From positions 1,639,001 to 1,703,000 of the forward strand of contig NZ_CP041186.1 in assembly GCF_006517175.1 (NCBI RefSeq): a DNA stretch of 64,000 bases, in the 5' to 3' direction. Both the position numbers and the translations under genes were made by a program. Under the pieces are notes generated by a model. The model searched no databases. It saw only the letters and a program-made list of their open reading frames with translations, and was not told where the DNA came from. The stretch's first letter is position 1. Each line of letters starts with the position of its first letter. Shown in pieces: positions 33,238 through 47,446 of the stretch. This DNA is from Persicimonas caeni (GTDB lineage Bacteria > Myxococcota_A > Bradymonadia > Bradymonadales > Bradymonadaceae).

Positions 33238-34566
33238 TCAGTCGCGCTCGGCCGGCTCGCCGCGGCGCGGAAGTTCGCGATATCGCTCGAAGAGCTTGTG
33301 CTGGCGGTTGTTATCGAGGCTCGTCTCGGCGCCGTCGACGTAGAGCCGCTCGACCCGCGTCGACAACTCGAACGGATCGCCCGACCACACGACCAGGTCG
33401 GCGGCCTTGCCGACCTCGACGGTGCCGATATCGTCACGCCCCAACGCCCGCGCCGGCGCCGCGGTAATCGCCTCGAGGGCGTCGGTGTGGCTCATACCCG
33501 CGCGCACCGCGTTGCCCGCCGCCTGGCGCAGTTTACGCACGTTGTGGGTCGAAAACGTCGACAAGACGACCGGCACGCCGGCCTCGGCGAGCAGCGCGGC
33601 GTTGTCGGCCCGCGCCCCCAGCTTCTCGAAGCGCTCGGGCAGATTCAGCGTGGGCTCGACGACGACTGGCACCTTGCGCTCGGCAAGCTCGTCGGCCACC
33701 TGCCAGGCCTCCGCGCCGCCGACGATGATGGGCTTCAACCCCACCTCGTCGGCAAACTTCAACACCACGCGAATATCGCTGGCCCGGTTGACTCGAAACA
33801 GCACCGGCATGCCCTGCTCCAACGTGGCGCCGAGGTTTTCGAGGTCGAGCCGACTCGCCGCGAGCTTGCGTGAGCGATTCTGGTCGTACCCCTCTTTGTT
33901 GTCGCGATAGAAGACTACATCGTCGTACAACTCGCGCAGCGACTCCATCGCCGCGCCACGCGAACCACCGGCGGCCCGCGCCCCGCGCTCGCCGTGGTTG
34001 ACGACCATGGCGACCGACGCGTCGTCGACGAACGCCGCCTGCTTGGCTCCGTTCTCGGCCCCGAGCCGCGCCCAGGCAGCCTTTCCGCTCACCAGCCCGC
34101 CGCCCGGGACGACCACCACGGAGGTGACCCCGCCGGTGCGCGTGATGGGAATCAATACGCTGTTGGGGTTGAATCCGTCGCTCACCGAAAACGCCGCGCG
34201 CACCGCATCTCCGCTGCCCGCGTGGTCGACCGTGCTGCCGGTCTGCCAGATCTCGACGACGCCCAGGCTCGTAAATGCGTCGACCAGCCCCGGCGTGATG
34301 ACCTTACCGGTCACATCGACGACCTCGGCCCCTTCGGGCACTTTCGTGTCGGGCCCGCCGACCGCCGCGATCTTGCCGTCTTTGCCGACCACGATCACGG
34401 CGTCGTCGATGACCTCGCCCGCGACGGTGTGGACCTTGGCGCCGCGAAGCACAGTTTGACCGAGCGCCGTCTGATCGGGCGAAGTCTGCGCCGAGGCGCT
34501 CGTCCCCCAAAGGCACAGCGCCAAGACGATGAGCAGCGTTCGAATTTGTCCGTTAAGCAGTCGCAT
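33238..34566 (-). CDS. Amidohydrolase-like protein lacking metal ligands (exported)
   Basis: A 442-residue protein with a signal peptide ending 'SASAQ'. It has the amidohydrolase frame ('GKVITPGLVDAFTSLG', C-terminal 'GKAADLVVWSGDPFEL'), but the metal sites are gone: the HxH of strand 1 is F-T-S, and the strand 5/6 His and strand 8 Asp positions in its neighbour ('LVHIHC', 'SFHHAL', 'IIHSDSP') read 'LFRVNR', 'IVGGAE' and 'VLSTFST' here. It is unlikely to be a metal-dependent hydrolase. It directly follows the working-type paralogue (TGATG overlap) with a strong GAGGAGG site, so a non-catalytic partner is likely. Confidence 0.8.
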   Translation of the reverse strand: MRLLNGQIRTLLIVLALCLWGTSASAQTSPDQTALGQTVLRGAKVHTVAGEVIDDAVIVVGKDGKIAAVGGPDTKVPEGAEVVDVTGKVITPGLVDAFTSLGVVEIWQTGSTVDHAGSGDAVRAAFSVSDGFNPNSVLIPITRTGGVTSVVVVPGGGLVSGKAAWARLGAENGAKQAAFVDDASVAMVVNHGERGARAAGGSRGAAMESLRELYDDVVFYRDNKEGYDQNRSRKLAASRLDLENLGATLEQGMPVLFRVNRASDIRVVLKFADEVGLKPIIVGGAEAWQVADELAERKVPVVVEPTLNLPERFEKLGARADNAALLAEAGVPVVLSTFSTHNVRKLRQAAGNAVRAGMSHTDALEAITAAPARALGRDDIGTVEVGKAADLVVWSGDPFELSTRVERLYVDGAETSLDNNRQHKLFERYRELPRRGEPAERD

Positions 34567-36041
34567 CACTGGACCTCCTCATCGTCCGCAGACGCATCGT
34601 CAGCAAATTGCCCCACCTCGAAGTCACTCCACGGCGCGGGGTCTTCGGCGCGGTCGTACTCACGCACGCCCTCGACCCACACCATGTCGGCCTCGGCGTA
34701 GACGCTGAAGGGATGCTTTGACCACAGCACGACATCGGCGCGCTTGCCCGCCTCGATCGTCCCGGTCGCCTCGTCGATGCCCAGCGCCCAGGCCGGGTTG
34801 GCGGTGATCCAGCGAAGCGCGTCGTCCTCGCTCAACTCCATACCCTCGTGCTTGGCCGCCCAGTAGGCCTTGGCGGCCTCCTGATTGAGCCGTTGGATAT
34901 CGTTGGGCGAGTCGGAGTGAATGATGGCGCGGCCGCCGGCGGCGTGGATGAGCGCGGCGTTTTGCGGGATGCCGTCGTGCATCTCGACCTTGTAGCCCCA
35001 CCAATCCGCCCAGGTCGACACGGCGACGTTCCATTCGGCGAGCACGTCGCGGATCTTGTACGCCTCCAGCGCGTGGTGGAACGAGCGAATCTCGAAGTCG
35101 AACTCGTCGGCGAGTTCGAGCACCTGGATCATCTCGTCGGCGCGGTAACAGTGGATGTGCACCAGGATATCGCCCTCCATGGCGCCGATGAGCGTCTCCA
35201 TACCCAGGTCACGCGATGGCGGCTGCGGCTTCGACTTCGGATCGGGCTCTTTCGCGCTCTTCCAGCGCGCCAACGCCTCGCGGTACTTCTCGTACGCACG
35301 CCGGGTCTCCCGCGCCTTCTGCAGCGTCTGACGCCACACCGCCATGGTCCCCATGCGCGTCGACGGCATGCCGCCGCGGTCGCCATAGACGCGCTTGGGA
35401 TTCTCCCCGCACGCCATCTTGAGCCCGTCGGGCGCCCCGTCGAAGTGCATCGCCTGGGCCGAAATCCCCGGATGCAACTCGAGCGTCACCGCCCGCCCGC
35501 CGATGATATTGGCCGAGCCGGGCAAGATCTGCAGCGCGGTGACGCCGCCGGCGAGCGCCTTCTGGAAGCCCGGATCTTGCGGCCAGGTACTGTGCGCGGC
35601 GTCCACCTGCGGGGTAGTCGGCGCGCTCGCCTCGTTGCCGTCGGAGTGCGCCTTCACGTAGGGCGTCGGATAGACACCCAGGTGCGAGTGAGTGTCGATG
35701 AGCCCGGGCGTGACAAACCGGCCGGTCCCGTCGATGACCTTCGCCCCCTCGGGCGCGTCGAGCTTTTCCTCGGAAACCCGAGCGATCTTGCCGTCTTCGA
35801 GCAGCAAAGAGCCGCCCTCGATGACCTCGCCCGTGGCGGTCATGATCGTCGCGCCCTCGATGAGCACGGTCTCGGGCTCGACCTCCACCGGGGTCAGATC
35901 ACGCGGCTGCGCGTTCATGCCCTCGGGCCAGTCGATGTCCTCGGCGGTGAACTCGGGGGCCTTGTCGCCGGCCGAGCCCGTCGCACAACCGGCCAACAGC
36001 GCCGCGGCGAGCAAGAAGAGAAGGGATTTTGGATACTGCAT
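34566..36041 (-). CDS. Amidohydrolase lipoprotein
   Basis: A 491-residue lipoprotein ('MQYPKSLLFLLAAALLAGC') of the imidazolonepropionase-like amidohydrolase group. The metal site is visible: 'TPGLIDTHSHLGVYP' (HxH), 'ILVHIHCYRADE', 'IRSFHHALEAYKI' and 'AIIHSDSPND'. A long charged insert lies near residues 255-285. It would hydrolyse C-N bonds of an unknown cyclic amide or peptide on the cell surface. The start at 36041 gives a normal lipoprotein signal; an in-frame GTG at 36059 is less likely. It shares a TGATG junction with the ligand-less paralogue downstream. Confidence 0.85.
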   Translation of the reverse strand: MQYPKSLLFLLAAALLAGCATGSAGDKAPEFTAEDIDWPEGMNAQPRDLTPVEVEPETVLIEGATIMTATGEVIEGGSLLLEDGKIARVSEEKLDAPEGAKVIDGTGRFVTPGLIDTHSHLGVYPTPYVKAHSDGNEASAPTTPQVDAAHSTWPQDPGFQKALAGGVTALQILPGSANIIGGRAVTLELHPGISAQAMHFDGAPDGLKMACGENPKRVYGDRGGMPSTRMGTMAVWRQTLQKARETRRAYEKYREALARWKSAKEPDPKSKPQPPSRDLGMETLIGAMEGDILVHIHCYRADEMIQVLELADEFDFEIRSFHHALEAYKIRDVLAEWNVAVSTWADWWGYKVEMHDGIPQNAALIHAAGGRAIIHSDSPNDIQRLNQEAAKAYWAAKHEGMELSEDDALRWITANPAWALGIDEATGTIEAGKRADVVLWSKHPFSVYAEADMVWVEGVREYDRAEDPAPWSDFEVGQFADDASADDEEVQ

Positions 36042-36055
36042 GGTGGCTAATTGGC

Positions 36056-36358
36056 TCACACGTAGCGTAATTCGATTTGCAGCAGCAGGTCTTTGTTCGT
36101 GCTGCCAAGAGAGATGGCGAAGTCGATCGCCTCCGGTTCGCCGTCGAGCTCTCCGTCGAGCAGGGACTCGAGCTCGCCCGAGAACGCCTCGCCGGCGTCG
36201 AAGTCACGCTTCGCCCCACGCAGCGCCACGTAAATCATGCCCGGATCTCCGGCGTCAGCGCGCACGTCGTGGCCGCCGTAGGTCGGCCACTCGCTGCGAA
36301 TACGCTCGGCGAGCTTTTCAGACAGATGCTTCAGGTGCTCTTGTTGTTCGTCGGCCAT
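36056..36358 (-). CDS. Hypothetical 100-residue protein
   Basis: A small acidic protein with no family I recognise: an N-terminal helix 'EHLKHLSEKLAERIRSEWP', then beta-rich 'GMIYVALRGAKRDFDAG' and a final 'AIDFAISLGSTNKDLLLQIELRYV'. The ATG at 36358 has GGAG close upstream, and codon use matches its neighbours. It ends 14 bp before the amidohydrolase start, so it probably leads that operon. Confidence 0.65.
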   Translation of the reverse strand: MADEQQEHLKHLSEKLAERIRSEWPTYGGHDVRADAGDPGMIYVALRGAKRDFDAGEAFSGELESLLDGELDGEPEAIDFAISLGSTNKDLLLQIELRYV

Positions 36359-36658: not shown

Positions 36659-38479
36659 TCATCCCCGACACGCCCGCCCCAAACTCTTGCCCGCCTTCGT
36701 CACCGGCGTCTCGTCCTCGACCTTGATCGACCCGCAGCTGTTGCTGCGAATCTTGGCGCCCCACTCGATGTGCAGGCCGGCCGCGCCGCTGTGGCGGCTG
36801 GTGACGTCGTTCATCGTCGCCGAGACCAGGCCGAAATAGTCGTCGAACATCAGGTTGGCGGGCTCGGCGCCCTTGAAGGTGCGCGGGCTGCCGCCATACT
36901 CGATGACGACGTGCTCGAAGACGTTCTCCACGCTGGAGGTGTCGACCAGGTGGATGCCTTTCCAGAAGCCGGGCTTTTTGCTGGCGCCGGTGAACGTGAT
37001 CGGCGCCTCTTCGGTGCCGCGCGCGGTCAGCCGCGAGCGGTAGACCGACAGGCCGGCGCCCTCGGCAAAGGCGACCGTGGCGCCCGGGGAGATCGTCACG
37101 TGCGAGTCGTCGCGCAGCACCACGTCGCCGCGCACCACGTACCGGGCGTCGATCGCCGGCCAGGTCGACTCGACGCCGTCGAGCTTGGCTCCCAGGATTT
37201 CGACACGGCCCGGCCCCGCCTGCTCTCCCGAGGTGATCCCGTAGGTGGTCTGGTCGTCCAGATACCCCACCACTACCGGGTGCAGCAGCGCGGCGGCGCG
37301 CTCGTTGTCGACCAGCTTGTTGTTGCCGAAGTCGACGTCCATCTTCTCTTCGGCGTAAAACCCGTACGCGCCGCTGCGGGACAGTTCGACGTTATTCATC
37401 TTCAGGCGCACCTTGCCGTAGTAGTCGTCGAGCATCAGGTTGGCCGGCTCGACGCCCTTGTAGGTGGGGCTGGCCCCGCCGTAGCGCACCGCCACGTGCT
37501 CCAAGACGTTGTCGACGCTATTACTGTCGATGTAGCGAATGCCGCGCCAGTAGCCGGGCACTTCCTTGATGCCGGTGAAGACGACCGGGGCGTCCTTTTT
37601 GCCGCGCGCCGAAAACCGCGACCGGAACACCGACACGCCCGTGTTCTCGTGGAACTTGAAGACCGCCCCGGGCCCGATATCCACAAACGAGTTGCCCGTC
37701 AGGCTGATACTGCCGGTGACCTCGTAGGGTACCTTCAGCCCCGGCCAGCGCAGTGTCTGCTGGTCGAAGGTCGCCCCGGCCAGCTCGACGACGTCGCGCC
37801 CGTTGCCCGTAAAGTCGCTGCCGGTGTCGATCTGATCGACGAAGACCGGGTGCAGGTGCGCGGCACCCTTTTTGTTCTTCGTGAGGGTGTTGTTGGCGAA
37901 TTTCGAGTGGATCTCCTCTTCGGCGTACAGCCCATAGCCGCCGCTGTGACGCATGGTCACGTCGCGCAGCACCACGTTGACCTTGCCGTAGTAGTCGTCG
38001 AGCATCAGGTTGGCCGGCTTGACCCCCTTGAAGCCCGGCGTCGCCCCGCCGTACTCGATGACCGCGTGCTCCACGACGTTCTCGGCGTGCGGAGAGTTCA
38101 TAAACCGGATGCCCGACCAGGCGCCCGGCTCCTTGCGGTTGGCCGTAAAGATGATCGGCTGGTCTTTGGTCCCCCGCGCGATCAACCTGCCCTCGTGAAC
38201 TGTCAGACCGGCGTCGTCGGCGAAGACCACCTTGACCCCCGGCTCGATCTCGAGGCGCACGTCGGTGCCCACGGTGATCTGCTCGGGCACCATGTAGCAG
38301 ACGCCCGGGCCACTCTCGAGGCGCTGGCTCTTGTGCAGCATGCGGTTGGTCAACGTGGTGGTGCTTCGGCACTCCTCGACAGTGGCCGGCTGCTCGCCCT
38401 CGTCGCCGTCGTCGCCCCAACAGGCAGCAAGAAGCCCTGTTGCCAAGGCGATTGCGATCAATTTGGCTCGGTAGCTCAT
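36659..38479 (-). CDS. Triplicated right-handed beta-helix lipoprotein (EPS locus)
   Basis: A 606-residue lipoprotein ('IALATGLLAAC', then an acidic linker). It contains three repeats of about 170 residues, each with 'GLTVHEGRLIARGTKDQPIIFT', 'GIRFMNSP..ENVVEHAVIEYGG', 'GVKPANLMLDDYYGKV' and 'RHSGGYGLYAEEE'-type blocks, the rung pattern of right-handed parallel beta-helix proteins. Such folds bind or cut polysaccharides (AlgG/AlgX-like, lyases), but I see no clear catalytic set. GGAGG precedes ATG 38479. It is the last gene of the exopolysaccharide operon, 40 bp after the barrel gene, so polymer binding or modification outside the membrane is the likely role. Confidence 0.78.
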   Translation of the reverse strand: MSYRAKLIAIALATGLLAACWGDDGDEGEQPATVEECRSTTTLTNRMLHKSQRLESGPGVCYMVPEQITVGTDVRLEIEPGVKVVFADDAGLTVHEGRLIARGTKDQPIIFTANRKEPGAWSGIRFMNSPHAENVVEHAVIEYGGATPGFKGVKPANLMLDDYYGKVNVVLRDVTMRHSGGYGLYAEEEIHSKFANNTLTKNKKGAAHLHPVFVDQIDTGSDFTGNGRDVVELAGATFDQQTLRWPGLKVPYEVTGSISLTGNSFVDIGPGAVFKFHENTGVSVFRSRFSARGKKDAPVVFTGIKEVPGYWRGIRYIDSNSVDNVLEHVAVRYGGASPTYKGVEPANLMLDDYYGKVRLKMNNVELSRSGAYGFYAEEKMDVDFGNNKLVDNERAAALLHPVVVGYLDDQTTYGITSGEQAGPGRVEILGAKLDGVESTWPAIDARYVVRGDVVLRDDSHVTISPGATVAFAEGAGLSVYRSRLTARGTEEAPITFTGASKKPGFWKGIHLVDTSSVENVFEHVVIEYGGSPRTFKGAEPANLMFDDYFGLVSATMNDVTSRHSGAAGLHIEWGAKIRSNSCGSIKVEDETPVTKAGKSLGRACRG

Positions 38480-38519
38480 TTGGGCCTCCGTGTATCTAGC
38501 AACAGCTTTGAAATCTGAA

Positions 38520-39848
38520 TCACAACCGAAACTCATACCCCACCAACGTCTCCGTCTGGTCGTAGGTCTCCCACTCCGACGAGTCTTGGTCGTTTCTCTG
38601 CGTCACGCTGATCATGAACCGGTGGTTGGGCGTGAGCATGTAGCGAAATCCGGCGGTGACCAGCCAGTGGGAGTCGGCGTTGAGGTCGCGCGGCTCCAGG
38701 TAGTCGCTCTTGTCGCCCAGGCCGCCGCCCACGTAGACCTGGGTGAGGTTGGAGATGAAGTAGAATCCGCGCAGAAACGCCGAGTGCGAGAGGTCGTCTT
38801 CGCTGAAGGTCAGGAAGTAGCGCGCCTCGAGCATGAACGGCTTGAAGTACAACTCGACGTTGGGGTTGAGCACCTCGTTGGGCTCGCTGGGAAACTGGAT
38901 ATGCCAGAAGCGGGCGCTGACCTTGAAGTGCTCGAATTTCCATCCCGGCTCCACAAACGCGTTCCACTCCGGCGAGAAAATCGGGCTGGGGCTGAAGCCG
39001 CCGCCGCCCTTGAAGTTCAGGCCCATGTCGAACTCGTAGTAGCCGTAGCCGTTGAAGCGCCAGTCGGACTCGCGCTCGTCGAAAAAGGGCCTGTGCATCC
39101 ACTCCCAGGTGCCCATCAGCGTCAGGTTTTCGTTGAGCTCACTGCCCACCGCTCCGCGCAGCCGCCAGCCGTCGAGCCGGTTGATAACGCGGCTGTAGCC
39201 GTAGAAGACGTTCGTATACAGCTTCGGGTAGGCGCTCTCGGCGAAGGAATCGCGCGCCTTGCAGGCGTTGGTCGCCTCCGGGGCGATCTCGCACGACTTG
39301 CGCAGGTCGGCCAGCGCCTGGGAGTTGCGCCCCATCCCCTTGTAGGCCATCGCGCGCTTGTAGAGCACGATGGGGTTGTCGGGGTCCTTCTGGTCGTAGC
39401 GGTTGTACCACTTGACCGCCTGGGTGTACTGCTCGCCCCACAGGAGCACGTCGCCGCGAAGCCGCATGGCGTCGGGGCGGTCGTAGACCTGCTGTGGCAG
39501 CTCGCCGAGAAGCTTTTGGGCCTCCTCGGCGCGGTCGGTCCACGCCAAGAGGCGGGCCTTCAGCAACTTCAAGTCGGCGCTGTCGCTGTACTTGCTCAGC
39601 GCCTTGTTCGCCCAGTCGAGCGCCTCTTGGTGTCGCTCGCGTGCGGCCAGCGACCGGGCGAGCTCGACGTAGGCGTCGGCGTTTTCGGGCTGGTCTTCAA
39701 TGCACTTGCGCGCGGTTTGCTCGGCCTCGTTAAAGCGCTTTTGCATGCGCAAGTAACGTGCTTCGGTGGCACAGCCGATCTCCGCGAAAACCTGCACGGG
39801 TACCGCAAGGGCCAAGACGATCGTGGTGATTGTCAGGATCCAACGCAT
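38520..39848 (-). CDS. YaiO-like outer-membrane barrel with TPR domain (EPS export)
   Basis: A 442-residue exported protein. After the signal ('LAVPVQVFAEIGC'), residues 25-205 form TPR hairpins ('NADAYVELARSLAARERHQEALDWANKAL', 'NPIVLYKRAMAYKGMGRNSQALADL'). Residues 215-442 are alternating beta strands ending 'TLVGYEFRL', with the terminal aromatic-x-Leu pattern of a barrel inserted by BAM. This TPR-plus-barrel order is that of YaiO and of the polysaccharide exporters PgaA and BcsC in shorter form. It should guide the nascent glycan through the periplasm and outer membrane. Confidence 0.82.
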   Translation of the reverse strand: MRWILTITTIVLALAVPVQVFAEIGCATEARYLRMQKRFNEAEQTARKCIEDQPENADAYVELARSLAARERHQEALDWANKALSKYSDSADLKLLKARLLAWTDRAEEAQKLLGELPQQVYDRPDAMRLRGDVLLWGEQYTQAVKWYNRYDQKDPDNPIVLYKRAMAYKGMGRNSQALADLRKSCEIAPEATNACKARDSFAESAYPKLYTNVFYGYSRVINRLDGWRLRGAVGSELNENLTLMGTWEWMHRPFFDERESDWRFNGYGYYEFDMGLNFKGGGGFSPSPIFSPEWNAFVEPGWKFEHFKVSARFWHIQFPSEPNEVLNPNVELYFKPFMLEARYFLTFSEDDLSHSAFLRGFYFISNLTQVYVGGGLGDKSDYLEPRDLNADSHWLVTAGFRYMLTPNHRFMISVTQRNDQDSSEWETYDQTETLVGYEFRL

Positions 39849-39884
39849 GATGATCCCCCGTTGACCGGAAGGCGAAAAACAACT

Positions 39885-41198
39885 CTAGCCGGTCGTATCT
39901 AGAACTATCGATTCGAAGACGGGCGCGTTCTGACCGGTGGCCATCTCGCGGTCGAGAAACAGAAACCAAATGGTCGAGGCGGCCGCCGGGCGCGTCGAGA
40001 AACCGGGCACCTCCACATTGGAGTACGGCAGCCCGTTCTCCCCCCGGCAGCTCAGCGCCACGCCCGTGGCCACCACCTTTTGGGCGGTGTCCCGGTCGCC
40101 GAGCCGGTGGGCGGCTAGGCCCATGCTCATCGTCCCCTCGACGAAGATGTGCTCGGGCGCCTGCACCGGGTCGTAGCCGTCGACCGAGTCTTCGTAGGGC
40201 CGAAAGCCGTACAATTCGCCGGCGTCGGTCTCGAAGTGATCGAGGGCGTAGCGGTAACTCTGCACGGCGCGCTCGCGCTCGCCGGTCGACAAGAGCCACA
40301 GCGCCCCCCAGGCGCCGGCGGCGTCGAGCGCGCGGTTGTCGTTGAGCCGATCGCTGGCGACGGCCACCGCAAAGCGGCCCTCCTCGTCGAGCCACAGCAC
40401 CTCGTTCATCCGCTCGGCCAGGCGCTCGGCGGTGCTCGGCTCCCAGCGCGCCAGCACAAAGTGGGCGTCGAACTGGTGCTCGGTGACCGCGTACTGCAGC
40501 GTGGGCCCCGGCGGGGCGTCGTACGGGGTGCTCGCCGAGTTGTAGCCCGCCGAGACGAGCCCGCGATCGAGGGTATTGCCCCCCAGGCGCATGCGCCGAA
40601 GGAAGTCGGCGCCGCGCCGCGCCGCGCGGATGGCCCGCGGCTGGCCGTAACGCTCGCCAAAATAGCCCAGCGCGTGCGCCGCCCAGGCGACCGTGCCATT
40701 GCGCACATAGCTTGCGTGGTAGTCGGCCGGGTATTTCGTGCCGAAGCTAAACCCCCAGCTTCCGTCGGGGTTTTGCAGGTAGATGAGCGTCTCGGCGATC
40801 CCGCTGGCCTTGGCCTGCTGGCCGCTCCATGCAAACCACAACAGCGCGAGCGCGTCGTCGTACACGAAGCTTCGCGACCCGAGGCTCCCCTCGGCGCGCG
40901 GATAGGAGAGCACGGCCAGCGCCTTCGACGGCCCGAGCGTGGCCGGGGCATACTCGACGACCTCCAAGAACTGGTTGGCTCGCTGGCGAGCGGCCTGGCG
41001 CACTTCCTCCACGTTGGCCTCCGTGGGCTTCGGGCATTCGACGGGCTTTTGCTCGGCGCGCTTGACGCTGGCGGTGTGGCACTGGCAGCCGAAGCCGACC
41101 GGGGCGACCACCAGGACGAAGAACGCCAGGAGCGCCCATCGACCGACCTGGCGAAAGCCAGTCCGCCGCAAGCCTCTATGTGGGACACGAGTGGCCAT
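39885..41198 (-). CDS. Alpha/alpha-toroid lipoprotein (putative glycan hydrolase or lyase, EPS locus)
   Basis: A 437-residue lipoprotein (lipobox 'VGFGC'). From residue 60 it consists of helical pairs with 'SFVYDDALALLWFAWSG', 'PDGSWGFSF', 'GTVAWAAHALGYFGERYG', 'RLNDNRALDAAGAWGALWLLSTG' and 'IFVEGTMSMGLAAHRLGD', a pattern of six-hairpin (alpha/alpha) toroid enzymes such as GH8, GH88 or lyase-type proteins. The D/E-rich 'FVYDDA' and 'FVEGT' motifs could be catalytic. GGAGGTGA precedes the start. It sits between the glycosyltransferase and the barrel, the position where other systems keep a periplasmic hydrolase or lyase (BcsZ, AlgL). Confidence 0.7.
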   Translation of the reverse strand: MATRVPHRGLRRTGFRQVGRWALLAFFVLVVAPVGFGCQCHTASVKRAEQKPVECPKPTEANVEEVRQAARQRANQFLEVVEYAPATLGPSKALAVLSYPRAEGSLGSRSFVYDDALALLWFAWSGQQAKASGIAETLIYLQNPDGSWGFSFGTKYPADYHASYVRNGTVAWAAHALGYFGERYGQPRAIRAARRGADFLRRMRLGGNTLDRGLVSAGYNSASTPYDAPPGPTLQYAVTEHQFDAHFVLARWEPSTAERLAERMNEVLWLDEEGRFAVAVASDRLNDNRALDAAGAWGALWLLSTGERERAVQSYRYALDHFETDAGELYGFRPYEDSVDGYDPVQAPEHIFVEGTMSMGLAAHRLGDRDTAQKVVATGVALSCRGENGLPYSNVEVPGFSTRPAAASTIWFLFLDREMATGQNAPVFESIVLDTTG

Positions 41199-41201
41199 GG
41201 G

Positions 41202-42683
41202 CTACTCACCTCCGTCGGCCTGCAGCATCGCCGGCTCCAACTCGGGCGCTTTGTCGTCGCCGTCGTCGCCTGCGTCGTCGGCCTCGTCGTCGGAGTGGCG
41301 CTCGAAGCCCTTGCGGGTCATCTTGCCCCACGACTTCTCGCCGACCAGGTACTTGATGAGCCCGCGGATGCGGTACCACAGCGTCAGCTGGCGGTAGCCC
41401 AGGTTCTCGAGGACGGCGGCGGCCAGCAATTTGAGCCGCGGCTTGACGCCCTTGAACAGGTTGAAGCCCCAGTTGTCGATGACCAGCGCCTGAATCGACA
41501 TCAGCGCGCCCAGCCAGAAGGCGACGACCAGGAACAAGAGCGCGAATTTGACGTCGACGAAGCCAAATGACACGCCGGCGACGAACCAGAAGTAGCCGAA
41601 CATCTCGATGATCGGGCCGAACAGCTCGAACATCAGGTAAGCGGGGAACACGAACGTTCCCACAGGGCCGAATTTCGGGTTCAGGAACATCGACTTGTGC
41701 CGCCACATCGCGTCGGCCATGCCCCGGTGCCAGCGGTCGCGCTGGTTGCTCAGAAGCTCGAGGCTCTCGGGAGCCTCGGTGTAGGCGATGGGGTCGGAGA
41801 TGTGGACGACCTGGCGCGGCGGATCTTCTTGTTGGACGTGGCGCTGCAGCTTGACCACAAGCTCCATGTCCTCGCCGACCGAGTCGGACTCGTAGCCGCC
41901 GACTTCGACGACCGCCTCGCGGCTAAACAGCCCGAAGGCGCCCGAGATGATGAGGTTGCCGCCCAGGCGGTTGAGTCCCATGCGGCCGAATAGAAAGCCG
42001 CGCAGGTACTCGACAATTTGGAAGCGGGCGACCCAGGAGTCGGGCACGCCGACCTCCTGCAAGACCCCCTGCTTGAACTTGCAGCCGTTGGCCAGGCGCA
42101 CCGTGCCGCCCACGGCGACGACGCCCTGCGGGTCGTACAAATACGGCTCGACCATGCGCAAAAGCGCCTTGGGCGTGACGATGGTGTCGGCGTCCGCGCA
42201 GCAAATCAGCGGATAGCGCGACACGTTGATGCCCACGTTGAGCGCGTCGGCCTTGCCGCCGTTCTCCTTGTCGACCACGTACAGGCGCGCGTCCTTCTTG
42301 GACTGGTAGACCTGGCGCACCGGCTCGGTCTCGAGCTGGCGGCGCACGATCAAATCGACCGGCTCGAGGTCGAACTCCTCTTTGAGCCGCTCGAGGGTGG
42401 CGTCGGTGCTGCCGTCGTTGATGACGATGACCTGGTGCTGCGGGTACTCGAGCTGCAGAAACGCGCGCACCGAGTCGACGATCGTGGCCTCCTCGTTGAA
42501 GGCAGGCGCCAAGATCGAGATCGGCGGCGTACTCGTCTGCGAGAGCACCGACGCATCGAGTTCGGGTAATTGGGCGGCTTTTCGACGCGCGATCTCGAAA
42601 ATCGAGAAAAAGATCAACAAGCCGTAAAAGCCATTGAGCCCAATGAAATAGCACAGAACAAAAACATCGACCCATTCTCTCAT
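41202..42683 (-). CDS. Processive family-2 glycosyltransferase (EPS synthase)
   Basis: A 493-residue membrane glycosyltransferase of the BcsA/PgaC/hyaluronan-synthase type. The N-terminal membrane helix is residues 5-28. Catalytic motifs follow in order: 'VINDGSTDAT', 'CCADADTIV' (DxD), 'SVGEDMELVVKL' (the ED base) and 'QRDRWHRGM' (QxxRW, the mark of processive enzymes). Several membrane helices occupy 325-405, and the tail is acidic. It would polymerise a sugar nucleotide and extrude the chain. No PilZ domain is fused. It overlaps the HEAT gene by ATGA and is followed 3 bp later by the toroid lipoprotein, so coupled translation is likely. Confidence 0.92.
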   Translation of the reverse strand: MREWVDVFVLCYFIGLNGFYGLLIFFSIFEIARRKAAQLPELDASVLSQTSTPPISILAPAFNEEATIVDSVRAFLQLEYPQHQVIVINDGSTDATLERLKEEFDLEPVDLIVRRQLETEPVRQVYQSKKDARLYVVDKENGGKADALNVGINVSRYPLICCADADTIVTPKALLRMVEPYLYDPQGVVAVGGTVRLANGCKFKQGVLQEVGVPDSWVARFQIVEYLRGFLFGRMGLNRLGGNLIISGAFGLFSREAVVEVGGYESDSVGEDMELVVKLQRHVQQEDPPRQVVHISDPIAYTEAPESLELLSNQRDRWHRGMADAMWRHKSMFLNPKFGPVGTFVFPAYLMFELFGPIIEMFGYFWFVAGVSFGFVDVKFALLFLVVAFWLGALMSIQALVIDNWGFNLFKGVKPRLKLLAAAVLENLGYRQLTLWYRIRGLIKYLVGEKSWGKMTRKGFERHSDDEADDAGDDGDDKAPELEPAMLQADGGE

Positions 42684-43792
42684 GCCGGAGCACCTCGCGT
42701 CTGGAGGAACAATCGGTAACGCTGTAGCTCTTGGCCGGCCGACTCGGCGGCGTAGCGGTCGTCGGAATGCTCGGCCACGTGACCCAGCCGCTCGAGGCCG
42801 GACTCGCCGATCTCGCGAAGGGCCATGGCCGCGTCTTGGCGCACCCAGAAGGCGCGGTCTTTGAGCGCCTCGGCCAACGGCTCGATCGCGGCGGTCTCAC
42901 GCCGACGCCCCAGGGCTTTGGCGGCGCGCGCACGCACCTGCCAGGCCGGGTCGTCGAGCGCCTCGATGAGCCACTCGAGGCTCGATTCTTCGGGGAGGCT
43001 CGCCGCTGCGGCGCACGCGCCGATGCGCACCTCCATGTCGTCGGACTTGAAGGCTCGCTCGAGCGCGCCCAGCACCTCGCCCAGGCCCTGCTGGGCGGCG
43101 ACCATCAACAAGATGCGCCGCACCCGGCCCGACTCGAATTGCTGCCAGCGGGTAAAGACGTAGCGCAGCTGCTCGGTCGACAACTCCTCGAGCACCGCGT
43201 GCACCGGCGCCTCCATCATGGGCGTGCTCAGATCGAGGTCTTTGAGGATGGCCACGATATCTTCGGGTTGGCCCACCCGCGCCAGGGTCTGCGCGGCGAG
43301 GATGCGCGACAGGTAGTCGCTGTCGGCCTGCTCGAGGAGCACCTCGCGGTCGGCCTCGGTGGCGACCACGTACAGCCGGCGCATCGCCTCGAGGCGCTTG
43401 CGCTCACTCATCGAGCGCGCCTGCTGGTGGTCGTCGGCGGCGTAGCCGAACTCGTGGTACAGCTCGACGAGGGTGTCGTGCGAGCGCCCGCGCGTCTGCA
43501 ACAGGTAGTCGGCGACGAAATCGCGCACGAACTCGCGGGGGTGGTCCTGAGCGCGCTGCATCCACTGACGCAGCGCGTCGGGGTCCCCCAGCGCGTCGTA
43601 AAAGGGCTCTTCGAGCTCATCGAGGAAACGTTTGTGGGCGTACTCCTTGTGCAACTGGCGTCCCGACTGCACCCACAGCCATACGATCAGCGCTGCAACC
43701 AGCGCCATCTCGACAACAATGGCGATCATCAACCCCCGATACAGCGGATTTGCCCACAAAACGTTCCATAACTCCAAAACATACTCAGACAT
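42680..43792 (-). CDS. Membrane-anchored HEAT-repeat protein (EPS locus)
   Basis: A 370-residue protein with one N-terminal membrane helix (about residues 18-41), then a helical region and clear HEAT/PBS-type repeats: 'SDYLSRILAAQTLARVGQPEDIVAIL', 'SDDMEVRIGACAAAASLPEESSLEWL', 'PAWQVRARAAKALGRRRETAAIEPLA' and 'RAFWVRQDAAMALREIGE'. The repeats should be cytoplasmic and dock proteins. Being directly upstream of, and overlapping, the synthase gene suggests that it assembles or regulates the synthase complex. Confidence 0.85.
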   Translation of the reverse strand: MSEYVLELWNVLWANPLYRGLMIAIVVEMALVAALIVWLWVQSGRQLHKEYAHKRFLDELEEPFYDALGDPDALRQWMQRAQDHPREFVRDFVADYLLQTRGRSHDTLVELYHEFGYAADDHQQARSMSERKRLEAMRRLYVVATEADREVLLEQADSDYLSRILAAQTLARVGQPEDIVAILKDLDLSTPMMEAPVHAVLEELSTEQLRYVFTRWQQFESGRVRRILLMVAAQQGLGEVLGALERAFKSDDMEVRIGACAAAASLPEESSLEWLIEALDDPAWQVRARAAKALGRRRETAAIEPLAEALKDRAFWVRQDAAMALREIGESGLERLGHVAEHSDDRYAAESAGQELQRYRLFLQTRGAPA

Positions 43793-43839
43793 CAGTCCTC
43801 CCCTCAGTGGCCGCCATCAGAAACAACCAGCCGACTGCA

Positions 43840-44718
43840 TTATTGACCGGCGGCCGGGCGAACCAGCCGCGCGATGCGTGCCACCAAAATGTCCGGGTTG
43901 ACCGGCTTACTGACGAAGTCGTCGGCGCCCAACTCGAAAGCGCGCACCACCGACTCCTGTTGCCCTTCGGCGCTCAACACGACCATGTAGGGTCGCTTGG
44001 CCGCGGCGGCTCCCCCGAGCTCGCCGAGCAACTCGAATCCGTTCTTGAACGGAAGGTTTAAATCAAAGACCACCAAATCGAATTGACGTTTGGCCGCCCG
44101 GTCCAAGGCCTCGCGGCCGTCGTTGGCCTGGGTGACCGTCCAGCCGCGGCGCTCGAAGGCCGAGCGCAACACGCGGTGGATGATCTCCTCGTCGTCGACC
44201 ACCAGCACCGACAACGCCGCGTCGTCGACGGGCGCGCCGGCGGCCGTGGCGGCCAGGCTCGGCCCGCTGCCTCCGTCGTTGTGCACCGCCGAGGCGGCCT
44301 GCCGAGGCAGACTCGGCGGGCCCGGCCGCGTCCGGTTCAGGCGCAATTGCGCGCCCACCCGTGCGACCAACTCCGAAGGCACCACCGGCTCGAGCACGAA
44401 ATCGTCGATGCCCGCCTTGAACATGCGCCGGCGCATCTCCACGCTGCCATCGGCGGTGACCGCCACCAGCGGCACGGGTACCTCGGCGCGCCGGCGCAGC
44501 GTCTCGACAAATCGCTCGAGCGCGCCAGGCGCGGCCAAGCTGTCGGTGCTGCCGAGCACCAAGTCCGGCCGACGCGCCTCGAAGCGCTTCCACAGCGCCT
44601 CGGGGTGCTCGAACCGCTCGCATTGCGCGCCGACCTCGGCGAGGACCGACTCGAGTCGCTCCCCGCGCGTGTCCGCCCCCAAGACCCACACGAGTCGTCG
44701 CGACAGATCCTGCTGCAT
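43840..44718 (-). CDS. Double-receiver response regulator (first receiver degenerate)
   Basis: A 292-residue protein with two receiver domains and no output domain. The second (from 'LSVLVVDDEEIIHRVLRSAF') is canonical: acidic pair, Asp in 'DLVVFDLNLP', and Lys in 'DDFVSKPVNPD'. The first (from 'RLVWVLGADTRGERLESVL') keeps the fold but has 'DLVLGSTDS' where the phospho-Asp should be and 'DDFVLEPVVPSEL' with Glu for Lys. ATG 44718 follows GGGGAAG. It is the first gene of the EPS operon, 47 bp before the HEAT gene, so it probably adjusts synthesis by protein contact. The partner kinase is not here. Confidence 0.88.
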   Translation of the reverse strand: MQQDLSRRLVWVLGADTRGERLESVLAEVGAQCERFEHPEALWKRFEARRPDLVLGSTDSLAAPGALERFVETLRRRAEVPVPLVAVTADGSVEMRRRMFKAGIDDFVLEPVVPSELVARVGAQLRLNRTRPGPPSLPRQAASAVHNDGGSGPSLAATAAGAPVDDAALSVLVVDDEEIIHRVLRSAFERRGWTVTQANDGREALDRAAKRQFDLVVFDLNLPFKNGFELLGELGGAAAAKRPYMVVLSAEGQQESVVRAFELGADDFVSKPVNPDILVARIARLVRPAAGQ

Positions 44719-45025
44719 AAGTACTTCCCCGTTTGCATCGAAACCTTGCACTTGCGAAACATCACCACCCGGGCTGCATCGAACAACCTCAGTGACTTCT
44801 AACACCGGCCCACGCCCCATTTTCGCGTTCTACGCTGGACCAGACCGTCCCATGCCAACTCATTGAGCGCTCTTGCGAGGCGGTTAGAATTGGTCTCAGA
44901 CGGATGAATCATCACTGAAGCCAACTGCTTTGGCCTTATCGGGGGCTGCTATGAAATCTAATCATTTCTGTGGTGCGTCCACGCACTGCGCTGGTTTTTC
45001 CACAGTTTTGATGGGTGGATCTTCA
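44719..45025. promoter_or_regulatory. Divergent regulatory region of the EPS locus
   Basis: About 300 bp between the response-regulator start and the glycoside-hydrolase-like start. TGCATCGAA occurs twice, near 44734 and 44776, as a direct repeat about 42 bp apart. No sigma-54 box is convincing. The region should contain promoters for both transcription units. Confidence 0.45.
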
Positions 45026-47446
45026 ATGACGCGAAAACCTAATGAATGCGATCAGACGCCGGCTCGGCGCACTTCACCTCATCATCGGGCCAGCCGGTGG
45101 TGGATCAGCCTTGTAGTGCTGGTGCTGGTGGGACTGGTCGGCTGTGAGGACGTCAATCCCGACGACCCCTCGACCATCAACAACCAACCGGGCCAAACGG
45201 ACGGGCCCGACGCCGGCCCCACCGCGCCGTCCGACCCGTGCGGGGGCGAACAGATCTGCGTGCTCAGCGACGAGCCGGAGACCTCCGGGCCGCGGGTGCC
45301 CTACTCGACCAACAGCGATTACGTGACCGTGCGCACCGGCTCGGGCTACCGGCCCATCTTCATGAAGGGCGTCAACCTGGGGGTGGGCGTGCCGGGCACC
45401 CGCGCCGGCCACCTGGCCGCCACTCGCGAGCAATACGCCAAGTGGTTCGACCAGATGACCGACATGGGCGTAAACACCCTGCGCATCTACACGCTGCACT
45501 ACCCGCGCTTTTATGAGGCGCTGGCCGAACACAACCGGGAGAACCCCGACAATCCGCTGTACATCTTGCACGGCATCTGGCTGCACGAGGAGTTTGAGGG
45601 ACTCGATTTGCTCGAAGACGGCTTTCGCAACAATATCCGCGAGATCGTCGACTGCACCCACGGCAACTGCCACATCAATCACCGCTACGGCAAAGCCTAC
45701 GGCACCTACGAGACCGACATCTCCCAGTGGATCATGGCCTGGATCATCGGCCGGGAGGTCAACCCCGAGGAGATCGAGCTGACCAACGAGCATATGGACG
45801 GCCAGACGAGCTGGGAGGGGGCGCATGTGCGCGTCACCGACGCCCAACCCTCCGAGGTGTGGTGGGCCCAACAGGTCGACTACCTCATCGATTACGAGCT
45901 CAACGGCGGCGAGAACTCCAGCGGCTACAACCAGACGCGCCCCATCAGCGTGTCGAGTTGGCCGACGCTCGATCCGCTGAACCACCCCACCGAGACCGAA
46001 GACTTCTCCTCGGAGGACATCAACAGCTTCGACATGCTCGCCCTGGAGGCCAAAGACGCCCCGGGCGGCTTCTTCGCCACCTTCCACGCCTATCCGTACT
46101 ACCCCGACTACATCGTCGACGACCCCGACTACCGCCAGTCGGCCGACGCCCAGGGGCCGAACTCGTATCTGGGGTATTTGACCGACCTGAAGAGCCACTA
46201 CGCCGACATGCCCCTGTATATCGGTGAGACGGGCGTCTCCTCGAGCTGGGGCTCGGCGCACTGGGGTTACGAGAATATGGACCACGGCGGACACACCGAG
46301 GTCGAGCAGGGAGAAGTCGGCGCCCGACTCTTTCGCACCGTGCACGACACGAACTGTGCCGGCGGCGCACTCTTTGCCTGGATCGACGAGTGGTGGAAAC
46401 CGACCTGGATCAGCGACCCGCGCGGCTCGGACGCCGAGCGCCGCCCGTTCTGGCACAACGTGACCGCCGCCGAGCAGAACTTCGGACTCATCGGCTTCGA
46501 CGTCGCCGAGCCCGCCTGGGAAGACGGCGTGACCACCGAAGGCAGCGGCTTTGTCGAGAGCGCCACGGTCATCCACGACGTCGCCTATTTCCACGTGCGC
46601 CTGCAGACCAGCGGTAGACTGAGCAGCAACCAGAAGCTGATTATCGGCTTCGACACCTACGGAAGCGAGGCCAGCGGCCAGTTCGACGAGGAATTGGGCG
46701 AGTCGACCCTGCCCGTCTTCGGGGCGCTGGGCGAGGAGTCACGCAAAGTGGTCGACGTGAGCGTCCCCGCCGAGGGGCCGACCACCCAAAACCGCAACGA
46801 GTTCGCCCTGATGCTCGACGGCACCAACTCGGCCAACATGATGGTGACCACCGCCTACGATAGCTTCCGCATCTGGTACGGCGCCCGCTTCGCCAACGGC
46901 CAGTTGTTCCAGTCCACCCAGACCGACGGTGTGCCCTGGAAGCTGGTGCGCTGGCTCAACAGCCAGGAGCACGGGGTCAAAGACGAGCAGGGCAACCCCG
47001 ACTCGGAGTTGTGGTTCGAGGAGACCGTCCACGAAATCGGCCGGCTCACGATCCGCCGCGCCGACGAGCAGGCGACCAGCCACGACGCGGTGGTCGTCCA
47101 CGACGACCGCATCGACATTCGCATCCCGTGGACGCTGCTCAACGTGACCGACCCGAGCAAGCTCAAGGTGTTGCACGCCAGCCCCAACGCCATTCGCAAA
47201 AAGAGCCCGCAGCACGCCGAGACCCGGGGCATCGCCATCAGCGTCGCCGACGAGAACAGCGTGCTCTTCGAGACCGAGCGCTACCGCTGGGAGCCCTGGG
47301 GGGTCCACGAGGATATCAACGACATCTACGGCTATCCGGTCGACGAGGAGACCGGCACGATCGACTGGATCGAGTACGAGCGGGACAAGCCGGCGCTGTC
47401 GATCTTCGGGGATGCGTTGAAGGATTTGCCGTACTGGATGGATTGA
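45026..47446 (+). CDS. Glycoside-hydrolase-like lipoprotein (clan GH-A-type barrel)
   Basis: An 806-residue lipoprotein. 'WWISLVVLVLVGLVGC' is the signal, then an acidic linker. The barrel domain begins 'YRPIFMKGVNLGVGVPG' and continues 'QYAKWFDQMTDMGVNTLRIYTLHYPRFYEAL' and 'IMAWIIGREVNPEEI', and has the probable nucleophile Glu in 'MPLYIGETGVSSSWG', the layout of GH2/GH5-like clan A hydrolases. The last 290 residues are a beta-rich domain. It faces the EPS operon across a shared promoter region and may trim or release that polymer. The start is uncertain: ATG 44951 and 45011 are also in frame. Family-level assignment is not possible by eye. Confidence 0.78.
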   Translation: MTRKPNECDQTPARRTSPHHRASRWWISLVVLVLVGLVGCEDVNPDDPSTINNQPGQTDGPDAGPTAPSDPCGGEQICVLSDEPETSGPRVPYSTNSDYVTVRTGSGYRPIFMKGVNLGVGVPGTRAGHLAATREQYAKWFDQMTDMGVNTLRIYTLHYPRFYEALAEHNRENPDNPLYILHGIWLHEEFEGLDLLEDGFRNNIREIVDCTHGNCHINHRYGKAYGTYETDISQWIMAWIIGREVNPEEIELTNEHMDGQTSWEGAHVRVTDAQPSEVWWAQQVDYLIDYELNGGENSSGYNQTRPISVSSWPTLDPLNHPTETEDFSSEDINSFDMLALEAKDAPGGFFATFHAYPYYPDYIVDDPDYRQSADAQGPNSYLGYLTDLKSHYADMPLYIGETGVSSSWGSAHWGYENMDHGGHTEVEQGEVGARLFRTVHDTNCAGGALFAWIDEWWKPTWISDPRGSDAERRPFWHNVTAAEQNFGLIGFDVAEPAWEDGVTTEGSGFVESATVIHDVAYFHVRLQTSGRLSSNQKLIIGFDTYGSEASGQFDEELGESTLPVFGALGEESRKVVDVSVPAEGPTTQNRNEFALMLDGTNSANMMVTTAYDSFRIWYGARFANGQLFQSTQTDGVPWKLVRWLNSQEHGVKDEQGNPDSELWFEETVHEIGRLTIRRADEQATSHDAVVVHDDRIDIRIPWTLLNVTDPSKLKVLHASPNAIRKKSPQHAETRGIAISVADENSVLFETERYRWEPWGVHEDINDIYGYPVDEETGTIDWIEYERDKPALSIFGDALKDLPYWMD

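Follow-up and report, generated by a model that had tools for sequence, protein, structure and literature searches.

Gene content and layout of the locus

The analysed window, a 64,000-nucleotide stretch of the Persicimonas caeni genome (a single contig of 8.05 Mb), carries a cluster of six minus-strand genes and a divergent plus-strand gene encoding a GH-A-like protein, whose positions were confirmed by ORF calls:

43840-44820, minus strand: regulator, 326 aa, with two REC stretches (Pfam Response_reg, 1.1e-34)
42680-43792, minus strand: HEAT protein, 370 aa (Pfam HEAT_2, 7.4e-22)
41202-42683, minus strand: GT2 glycosyltransferase, 493 aa (GT2, 6e-21; motifs DxD, GED and QRDRW)
39885-41198, minus strand: putative alpha/alpha toroid protein, 437 aa, exported, with a QW-like motif (QxxDGxWG)
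38520-39848, minus strand: TPR/YaiO protein, 442 aa (TPR_19, 8.4e-15; YaiO barrel PF19413, 1.5e-8)
36659-38536, minus strand: triplicated beta-helix lipoprotein, 625 aa, with lipobox LAAC and three tandem units
44930-47446, plus strand: GH-A-like lipoprotein, 838 aa counted from TTG, with lipobox LVGC
44719-45025: intergenic stretch separating the likely start of the regulator from that of the GH-A-like gene

The six minus-strand genes are as tightly packed as a previous reading of the DNA letters (hereafter the sequence-only reading) had described them, with gaps of 47, -4, 3, 36 and -17 bp in transcription order from the regulator to the beta-helix gene, the HEAT and GT2 genes sharing the 4 bp overlap, and the GH-A-like gene does diverge beside the regulator. 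For the latter gene an ATG near 45026 is a more likely start than the TTG at 44930, and the true start of the regulator likely lies at about 44718. GC3 values of 0.82-0.90 in all seven genes, versus 0.63-0.73 in two long antisense ORFs, indicate coding-type codon bias, and a promoter scan of the intergenic region returned one weak promoter-like match, at chance level. Among the domains of the cluster, REC, HEAT, GT2, TPR and YaiO were recovered by Pfam and NCBIfam, while the toroid and GH-A-like proteins gave no significant family match. Two adjacent amidohydrolase-family genes with signal-peptide-like N-termini lie downstream at window positions 33238-36059 and are apparently unrelated to the cluster.

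Phylogeny of the GT2

The window GT2 has 3-4 predicted transmembrane (TM) segments and carries the DxD, ED and QxxRW motifs (the last as QRDRW, residues 314-318) that are expected of the membrane GT2 in synthase-dependent exopolysaccharide (EPS) systems. These motifs show essentially no variation across the HEAT-associated GT2s, whose TM pattern is similar to that of IcaA, NodC and PgaC; because of both, the enzyme is argued, rather than proven, to be processive. Its best relative with a solved structure is cellulose synthase.

In a quick tree with E. coli PgaC, BcsA, NfrB and YaiP, Rhizobium NodC, Staphylococcus IcaA, Azospirillum BcsA, an XrtG-associated GT2 and two fused GT2s as references, some of them on long branches, all HEAT-associated GT2s lie on one side of a branch of moderate support (SH-aLRT 86). 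Scores with the GT2 family model range from 420 to 780 bits inside this clade versus at most 235 for the references, PgaC (137 bits), IcaA (152), YaiP (61) and NfrB (16) all falling outside. Tree and scores together place the window GT2 in a clade distinct from PgaC/IcaA, BcsA, NodC, NfrB and YaiP, and in the sample tested it did not group with single-addition enzymes, an outcome that had been named beforehand as a test. The boundary of the HEAT-GT2 family is marked by GT2s of Sulfitobacter and Prevotella (27-29% identity), which are long fused proteins without a HEAT neighbour.

A conserved HEAT-GT2 pair

The HEAT protein of the window has one N-terminal TM helix (residues 21-39), followed by HEAT repeats assigned to the cytoplasm. 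Its conservation was assessed in 91 loci chosen by their GT2 alone, namely the 80 best loci of a GT2-alignment scan (one genome per species, 84,980 species), to which 10 stretches of relatives and the window itself were added. At least three pairs of these loci are duplicates or nearly so (L025/L034, L028/L035 and L073/L076). A direct frame search identified a HEAT-family frame directly upstream of the GT2 in 89 of the 91 (E at most 7e-25); the two loci without one have just 74 and 0 bases upstream of the GT2 before the contig ends. A TM-like segment is present in the N-terminus of 86/87 complete HEAT proteins, and the TM-anchored HEAT protein represents, in these 89 loci, the encoded inner-membrane partner that is characteristic of synthase-dependent EPS systems. 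The HEAT gene likewise accompanies the GT2 match in 57 relatives wherever the locus is long enough, and among plasmid-borne relatives public annotation places a HEAT repeat gene next to the GT2 in Haloarcula, Mesorhizobium, Deinococcus, Bacteroides, Planococcus, Legionella and Devosia, the gene in this position in Emticicia being annotated as hypothetical.

The HEAT-GT2 loci among the 80 best are distributed over about 18 phyla, including one archaeal MAG; the nearest named relative found in the GT2 scan is a Lujinxingiaceae MAG, and further Myxococcota were recovered too. The near-universal pairing across phyla and Archaea is the more striking point, and one that is invisible from a single window. 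The sequence-only reading had proposed the HEAT protein as an inner-membrane scaffold: a membrane-anchored HEAT protein beside the GT2 is indeed what is found, but "scaffold" appears too modest, and the near-universal adjacency points to an obligate synthase partner. The pairing itself is observed, and from it we infer a physical complex of the two proteins.

Archaeal HEAT-GT2 pairs, representing the core without any outer membrane, were seen in Haloarcula (L117:4433-7380), where the locus consists of a lone response regulator (REC), HEAT and GT2 only, and in a Thermoplasmatota MAG (L078). Another record, L036, bears the title of a Klebsiella pneumoniae MAG, yet its GT2 groups with those of the Myxococcota, and the label is probably wrong.

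Receiver-domain regulators

The window regulator is a stand-alone double receiver with no output domain, in which REC1 is degenerate (phospho-Asp missing) and REC2 intact (DD/D/S/K present); in most relatives this place is taken by a single REC or a REC-GGDEF protein. According to a simple ORF caller, whose counts are approximate, 69 of 89 loci have a REC-family gene in the same orientation no more than 9 kb away, the gene immediately upstream of HEAT encoding a lone REC in 22, a REC-GGDEF protein in 11 and another REC protein in 18, and a GGDEF motif occurs in 20 of the 89. Pfam also identified proteins of the Hpt-REC-GGDEF-REC type and hybrid kinases beside the Bacillus and Neomarinimicrobiota loci. 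In three close relatives (G002, G006 and G014) no REC gene separates HEAT from the GH-A gene, and the two face each other directly.

The control of synthase-dependent EPS systems has been linked to c-di-GMP receptors (reviewed in PMC8461298). Neither PilZ nor any other known c-di-GMP receptor domain was detected by Pfam/NCBIfam in the seven cluster proteins; PilZ genes are present elsewhere in the genome. A precedent for post-translational control by a single-domain response regulator, as proposed below for the window, is the EpsW-EpsZ pair of Myxococcus xanthus, in which such a regulator activates polysaccharide synthesis through direct binding, although EpsZ is a phosphoglycosyl transferase of the Wzx/Wzy pathway and not a GT2 synthase (PMC12802240).

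Candidate exporter, putative toroid and beta-helix proteins

The TPR/YaiO protein reaches 40.7 bits with TIGR04390 (NCBIfam, cut-off 32), and its TPR domain followed by a YaiO barrel, corresponding to the TPR and outer-membrane barrel of synthase-dependent EPS systems, makes it a candidate outer-membrane exporter. In 39 loci, most of them from Gram-negatives, a YaiO-model gene lies no more than 6 kb away; the model detected none in half of the loci, among which many are Gram-positive, actinobacterial, archaeal or contig-limited. Together with the HEAT counts, this gives a strongly positive answer to the check for conserved co-occurrence of the GT2, HEAT and YaiO genes that the sequence-only reading had suggested.

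No significant match was obtained for the toroid protein in Pfam, NCBIfam or the PDB, where squalene-hopene cyclase was reached by its profile at just E 0.86, which is not significant. Its earlier description as a toroid lipoprotein comes down to a QW-like motif and this kind of weak similarity, and the GFGC lipobox that the protein carries in the window is non-canonical. The beta-helix protein has a sub-threshold Beta_helix match (23.6 vs 25.9 bits), and its triplication was rightly recognised from the letters: aligned in pairs, the three units (about 165 aa each), which plain self-BLAST had not revealed as a repeat, share 46-50% identity and score 335-390 versus at most 53 for shuffles.

The distribution of these accessories is narrower. 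A GT2 match with E below 1e-90 is found in 43 of 282 Myxococcota genomes and the toroid in 33, of which 31 also have the GT2 (p = 4e-29, inflated by the relatedness of the genomes), whereas the triplicated beta-helix lipoprotein is confined to the window and one other genome (G008), i.e., two genera. All parts of the proposed six-gene system are present in the window, but the toroid is limited to parts of the Myxococcota and the beta-helix protein to these two genera; the real unit is a HEAT-GT2 core, usually with a REC regulator, to which YaiO and accessories of narrower spread are added.

A GH-A-like family and a second exported domain

The hallmark of clan GH-A is a pair of catalytic Glu residues at the ends of strands 4 and 7 of a TIM barrel. 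An alignment of 16 sequences (A3) shows an invariant Glu pair in the GH-A-like protein, E157 and E314, 157 residues apart, and the C-terminal region is beta-sandwich-like. No significant match was found in Pfam, NCBIfam or the PDB, including a profile search of the alignment against the PDB, and one family member touches GH113 weakly, at 0.008. From these motifs the plus-strand gene is predicted to encode a hydrolase or transglycosidase of GH-A-like fold.

Several observations indicate that this gene belongs to the system. Its homologues are located inside the operon in Bacilli, Clostridium, Desulfosporosinus, Paenibacillus and one actinobacterium, and are divergent in the window family. The protein is present in 21 of the 282 Myxococcota genomes, 19 of which also have the GT2 (p = 9e-16, likewise inflated by relatedness), and in one Myxococcota family (f11) the gene still tracks the GT2 from a separate contig.

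A second exported domain of about 400 aa was seen in HEAT-GT2 loci (L053:12678-13886, L042:12922-14112 and the C-terminal part of L036:9995-12487). In Neomarinimicrobiota and some Myxococcota it forms a protein of its own, in others (L036) it is joined to the GT2, and in Bacilli to the GH-A-like domain; ORFs of 830-899 aa are probably further GT2 fusions of this type. The domain has no Pfam or NCBIfam match, scans of the Bacilli GH-A fusions with the same libraries gave nothing useful, and a search of the window genome, run without a positive control, did not detect it.

Comparison with characterised systems

A 2020 survey recognised five synthase-dependent EPS systems, for cellulose, acetylated cellulose, PNAG, alginate and Pel (PMC7112194), and NfrB was added as an EPS synthase in 2021 (PMC8669469); obligate partner subunits are described for PgaCD and Alg8-Alg44 (PMC8461298). 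The word HEAT is absent from all three of these texts, no published description of a HEAT-GT2 system was found in the open-access literature, and two literature matches to HEAT concerned beta-catenin and the XopN effector. A match in gene order to a characterised system, which the sequence-only reading had named as contrary evidence, was looked for, and none with such a gene set was found; the markers it had reported as missing (BcsB, PgaB, Alg8/44 and PilZ) indeed have no match in the cluster.

The Bcs system resembles the window in its GT2 with DxD, ED and QxxRW, its TPR/barrel exporter and its periplasmic hydrolase (a predicted one in the window), but the window GT2 has no PilZ domain and scores 56.5 bits with CelA (cut-off 699.1), and BcsB is absent from the whole genome in a search that detected its positive controls; membership was rejected. 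Alginate (Alg8-Alg44-AlgKEGXL) likewise combines a synthase and one-TM partner with TPR/barrel export and with beta-helix and alpha/alpha-fold periplasmic proteins, the latter fold being putative in the window. It was rejected in turn, as no Alg8/Alg44 or AlgK/E/G/X/L family is among the window matches, the PilZ partner is missing and the window beta-helix protein is a lineage-specific triplicated lipoprotein. The E. coli Nfr system (NfrB-NfrA-YbcH), recently added to the EPS systems and equipped with a diguanylate cyclase of its own (PMC8669469), shares a GT2 synthase and a TPR/barrel exporter with the window; it has no HEAT protein, NfrB carries a C-terminal MshEN domain that has no match in the window, and its 16 bits and position outside the clade led to its rejection.

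A candidate synthase-dependent system with a HEAT partner

Taken together, these results make it probable that the cluster encodes a synthase-dependent EPS system of an undescribed lineage, in which the HEAT protein would act as synthase partner and in which product, activity and docking are predictions. The gene set, motifs and conservation support the outline of the sequence-only reading, in which synthesis and export of a polymer are predicted, and the system is a real and conserved variant of synthase-dependent EPS machinery, apparently without published description. Judging from its motifs and TM pattern, the GT2 would polymerise a nucleotide sugar and extrude the chain across the inner membrane, with HEAT, anchored by its single TM helix, as an obligatory cytoplasmic partner that would replace PgaD, Alg44 or the PilZ/BcsB module. 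Phosphorylated lone receivers, or REC-GGDEF proteins elsewhere, probably activate the synthase by docking to HEAT or GT2. Passage of the polymer across the outer membrane may, in the window lineage, be the task of the TPR-YaiO protein; the toroid and GH-A-like lipoprotein may trim or modify the chain, and at the surface the beta-helix lipoprotein may bind or modify it.

An unlikely alternative is that the GT2 decorates a lipid or an envelope protein with single sugars or short chains, with HEAT recruiting it and the remaining genes being independent envelope genes. The small number of TM segments predicted in the window GT2, the partner sets that differ among lineages and the minimal REC, HEAT and GT2 locus of Haloarcula would fit this; the invariant QxxRW and ED motifs, however, are typical of processive enzymes, the TM pattern is like that of IcaA, NodC and PgaC, and the GT2 recurs with a TPR-barrel exporter and with enzymes that likely act on a polymer, including a fusion to the ~400-aa exported domain.

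The cluster could also be a divergent PNAG (Pga/Ica) member, with the GT2 as a PgaC relative, HEAT in place of PgaD, YaiO of PgaA and the GH-A-like protein of the hydrolase half of PgaB, a proposal we regard as very unlikely. PgaABCD/IcaADBC does share with the window an inner-membrane GT2 with QxxRW, a TPR-barrel exporter, a surface glycoside hydrolase (a predicted one in the window) and a membrane partner (the small obligate PgaD, whose role HEAT would take), and the best NCBIfam model of the window GT2 is PgaC_IcaA. Yet this match, at 127.4 bits, is far below the cut-off of 422.3, PgaC and IcaA both fall outside the clade, no PgaB/IcaB deacetylase or PgaD was matched in the operon (Pfam/NCBIfam), the PgaA equivalog models (NCBIfam) score far under cut-off, and regulation is probably through locally encoded REC/GGDEF proteins; PNAG membership was rejected on these scores, the clade and the missing subunits. 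That the cluster is an E. coli yaiO-yaiP type locus (YaiO barrel, GT2 and deacetylase) carried elsewhere is scarcely credible and ruled out by tree and scores: a YaiO-family barrel is common to both and YaiP is a GT2 encoded beside yaiO, so that some common export logic is conceivable, but YaiP lies outside the clade, the E. coli locus has no HEAT gene, and the window cluster has no acyltransferase or YaiS-type deacetylase.

Returning to the synthase-dependent system with a HEAT partner, a broader extension can be put forward tentatively, at somewhat less than even confidence: a separate, very widespread class of processive synthases, in about 18 bacterial phyla and some Archaea, in which an obligate one-TM HEAT subunit would couple receiver phosphorylation (and in some lineages local c-di-GMP synthesis) directly to polymerisation, and which would have its own unclassified GH-A-like and ~400-aa families. 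The family spans Gram-negatives, Gram-positives and Archaea, and its partner subunit is conserved and of a new type; for this subunit we offer the hypothesis of a switch between REC and synthase. An uncharacterised polymer is to be expected in many lineages, and the two families of likely polysaccharide-acting proteins stand out as well.

Finally, sulfatase/LTA-synthase-like proteins, one of them with TPRs, were seen in HEAT-GT2 clusters of Bdellovibrio and Bacteroidota (L056:5498-7864, L063:4806-7268 and L119), where they possibly transfer a phospho-substituent to the polymer.
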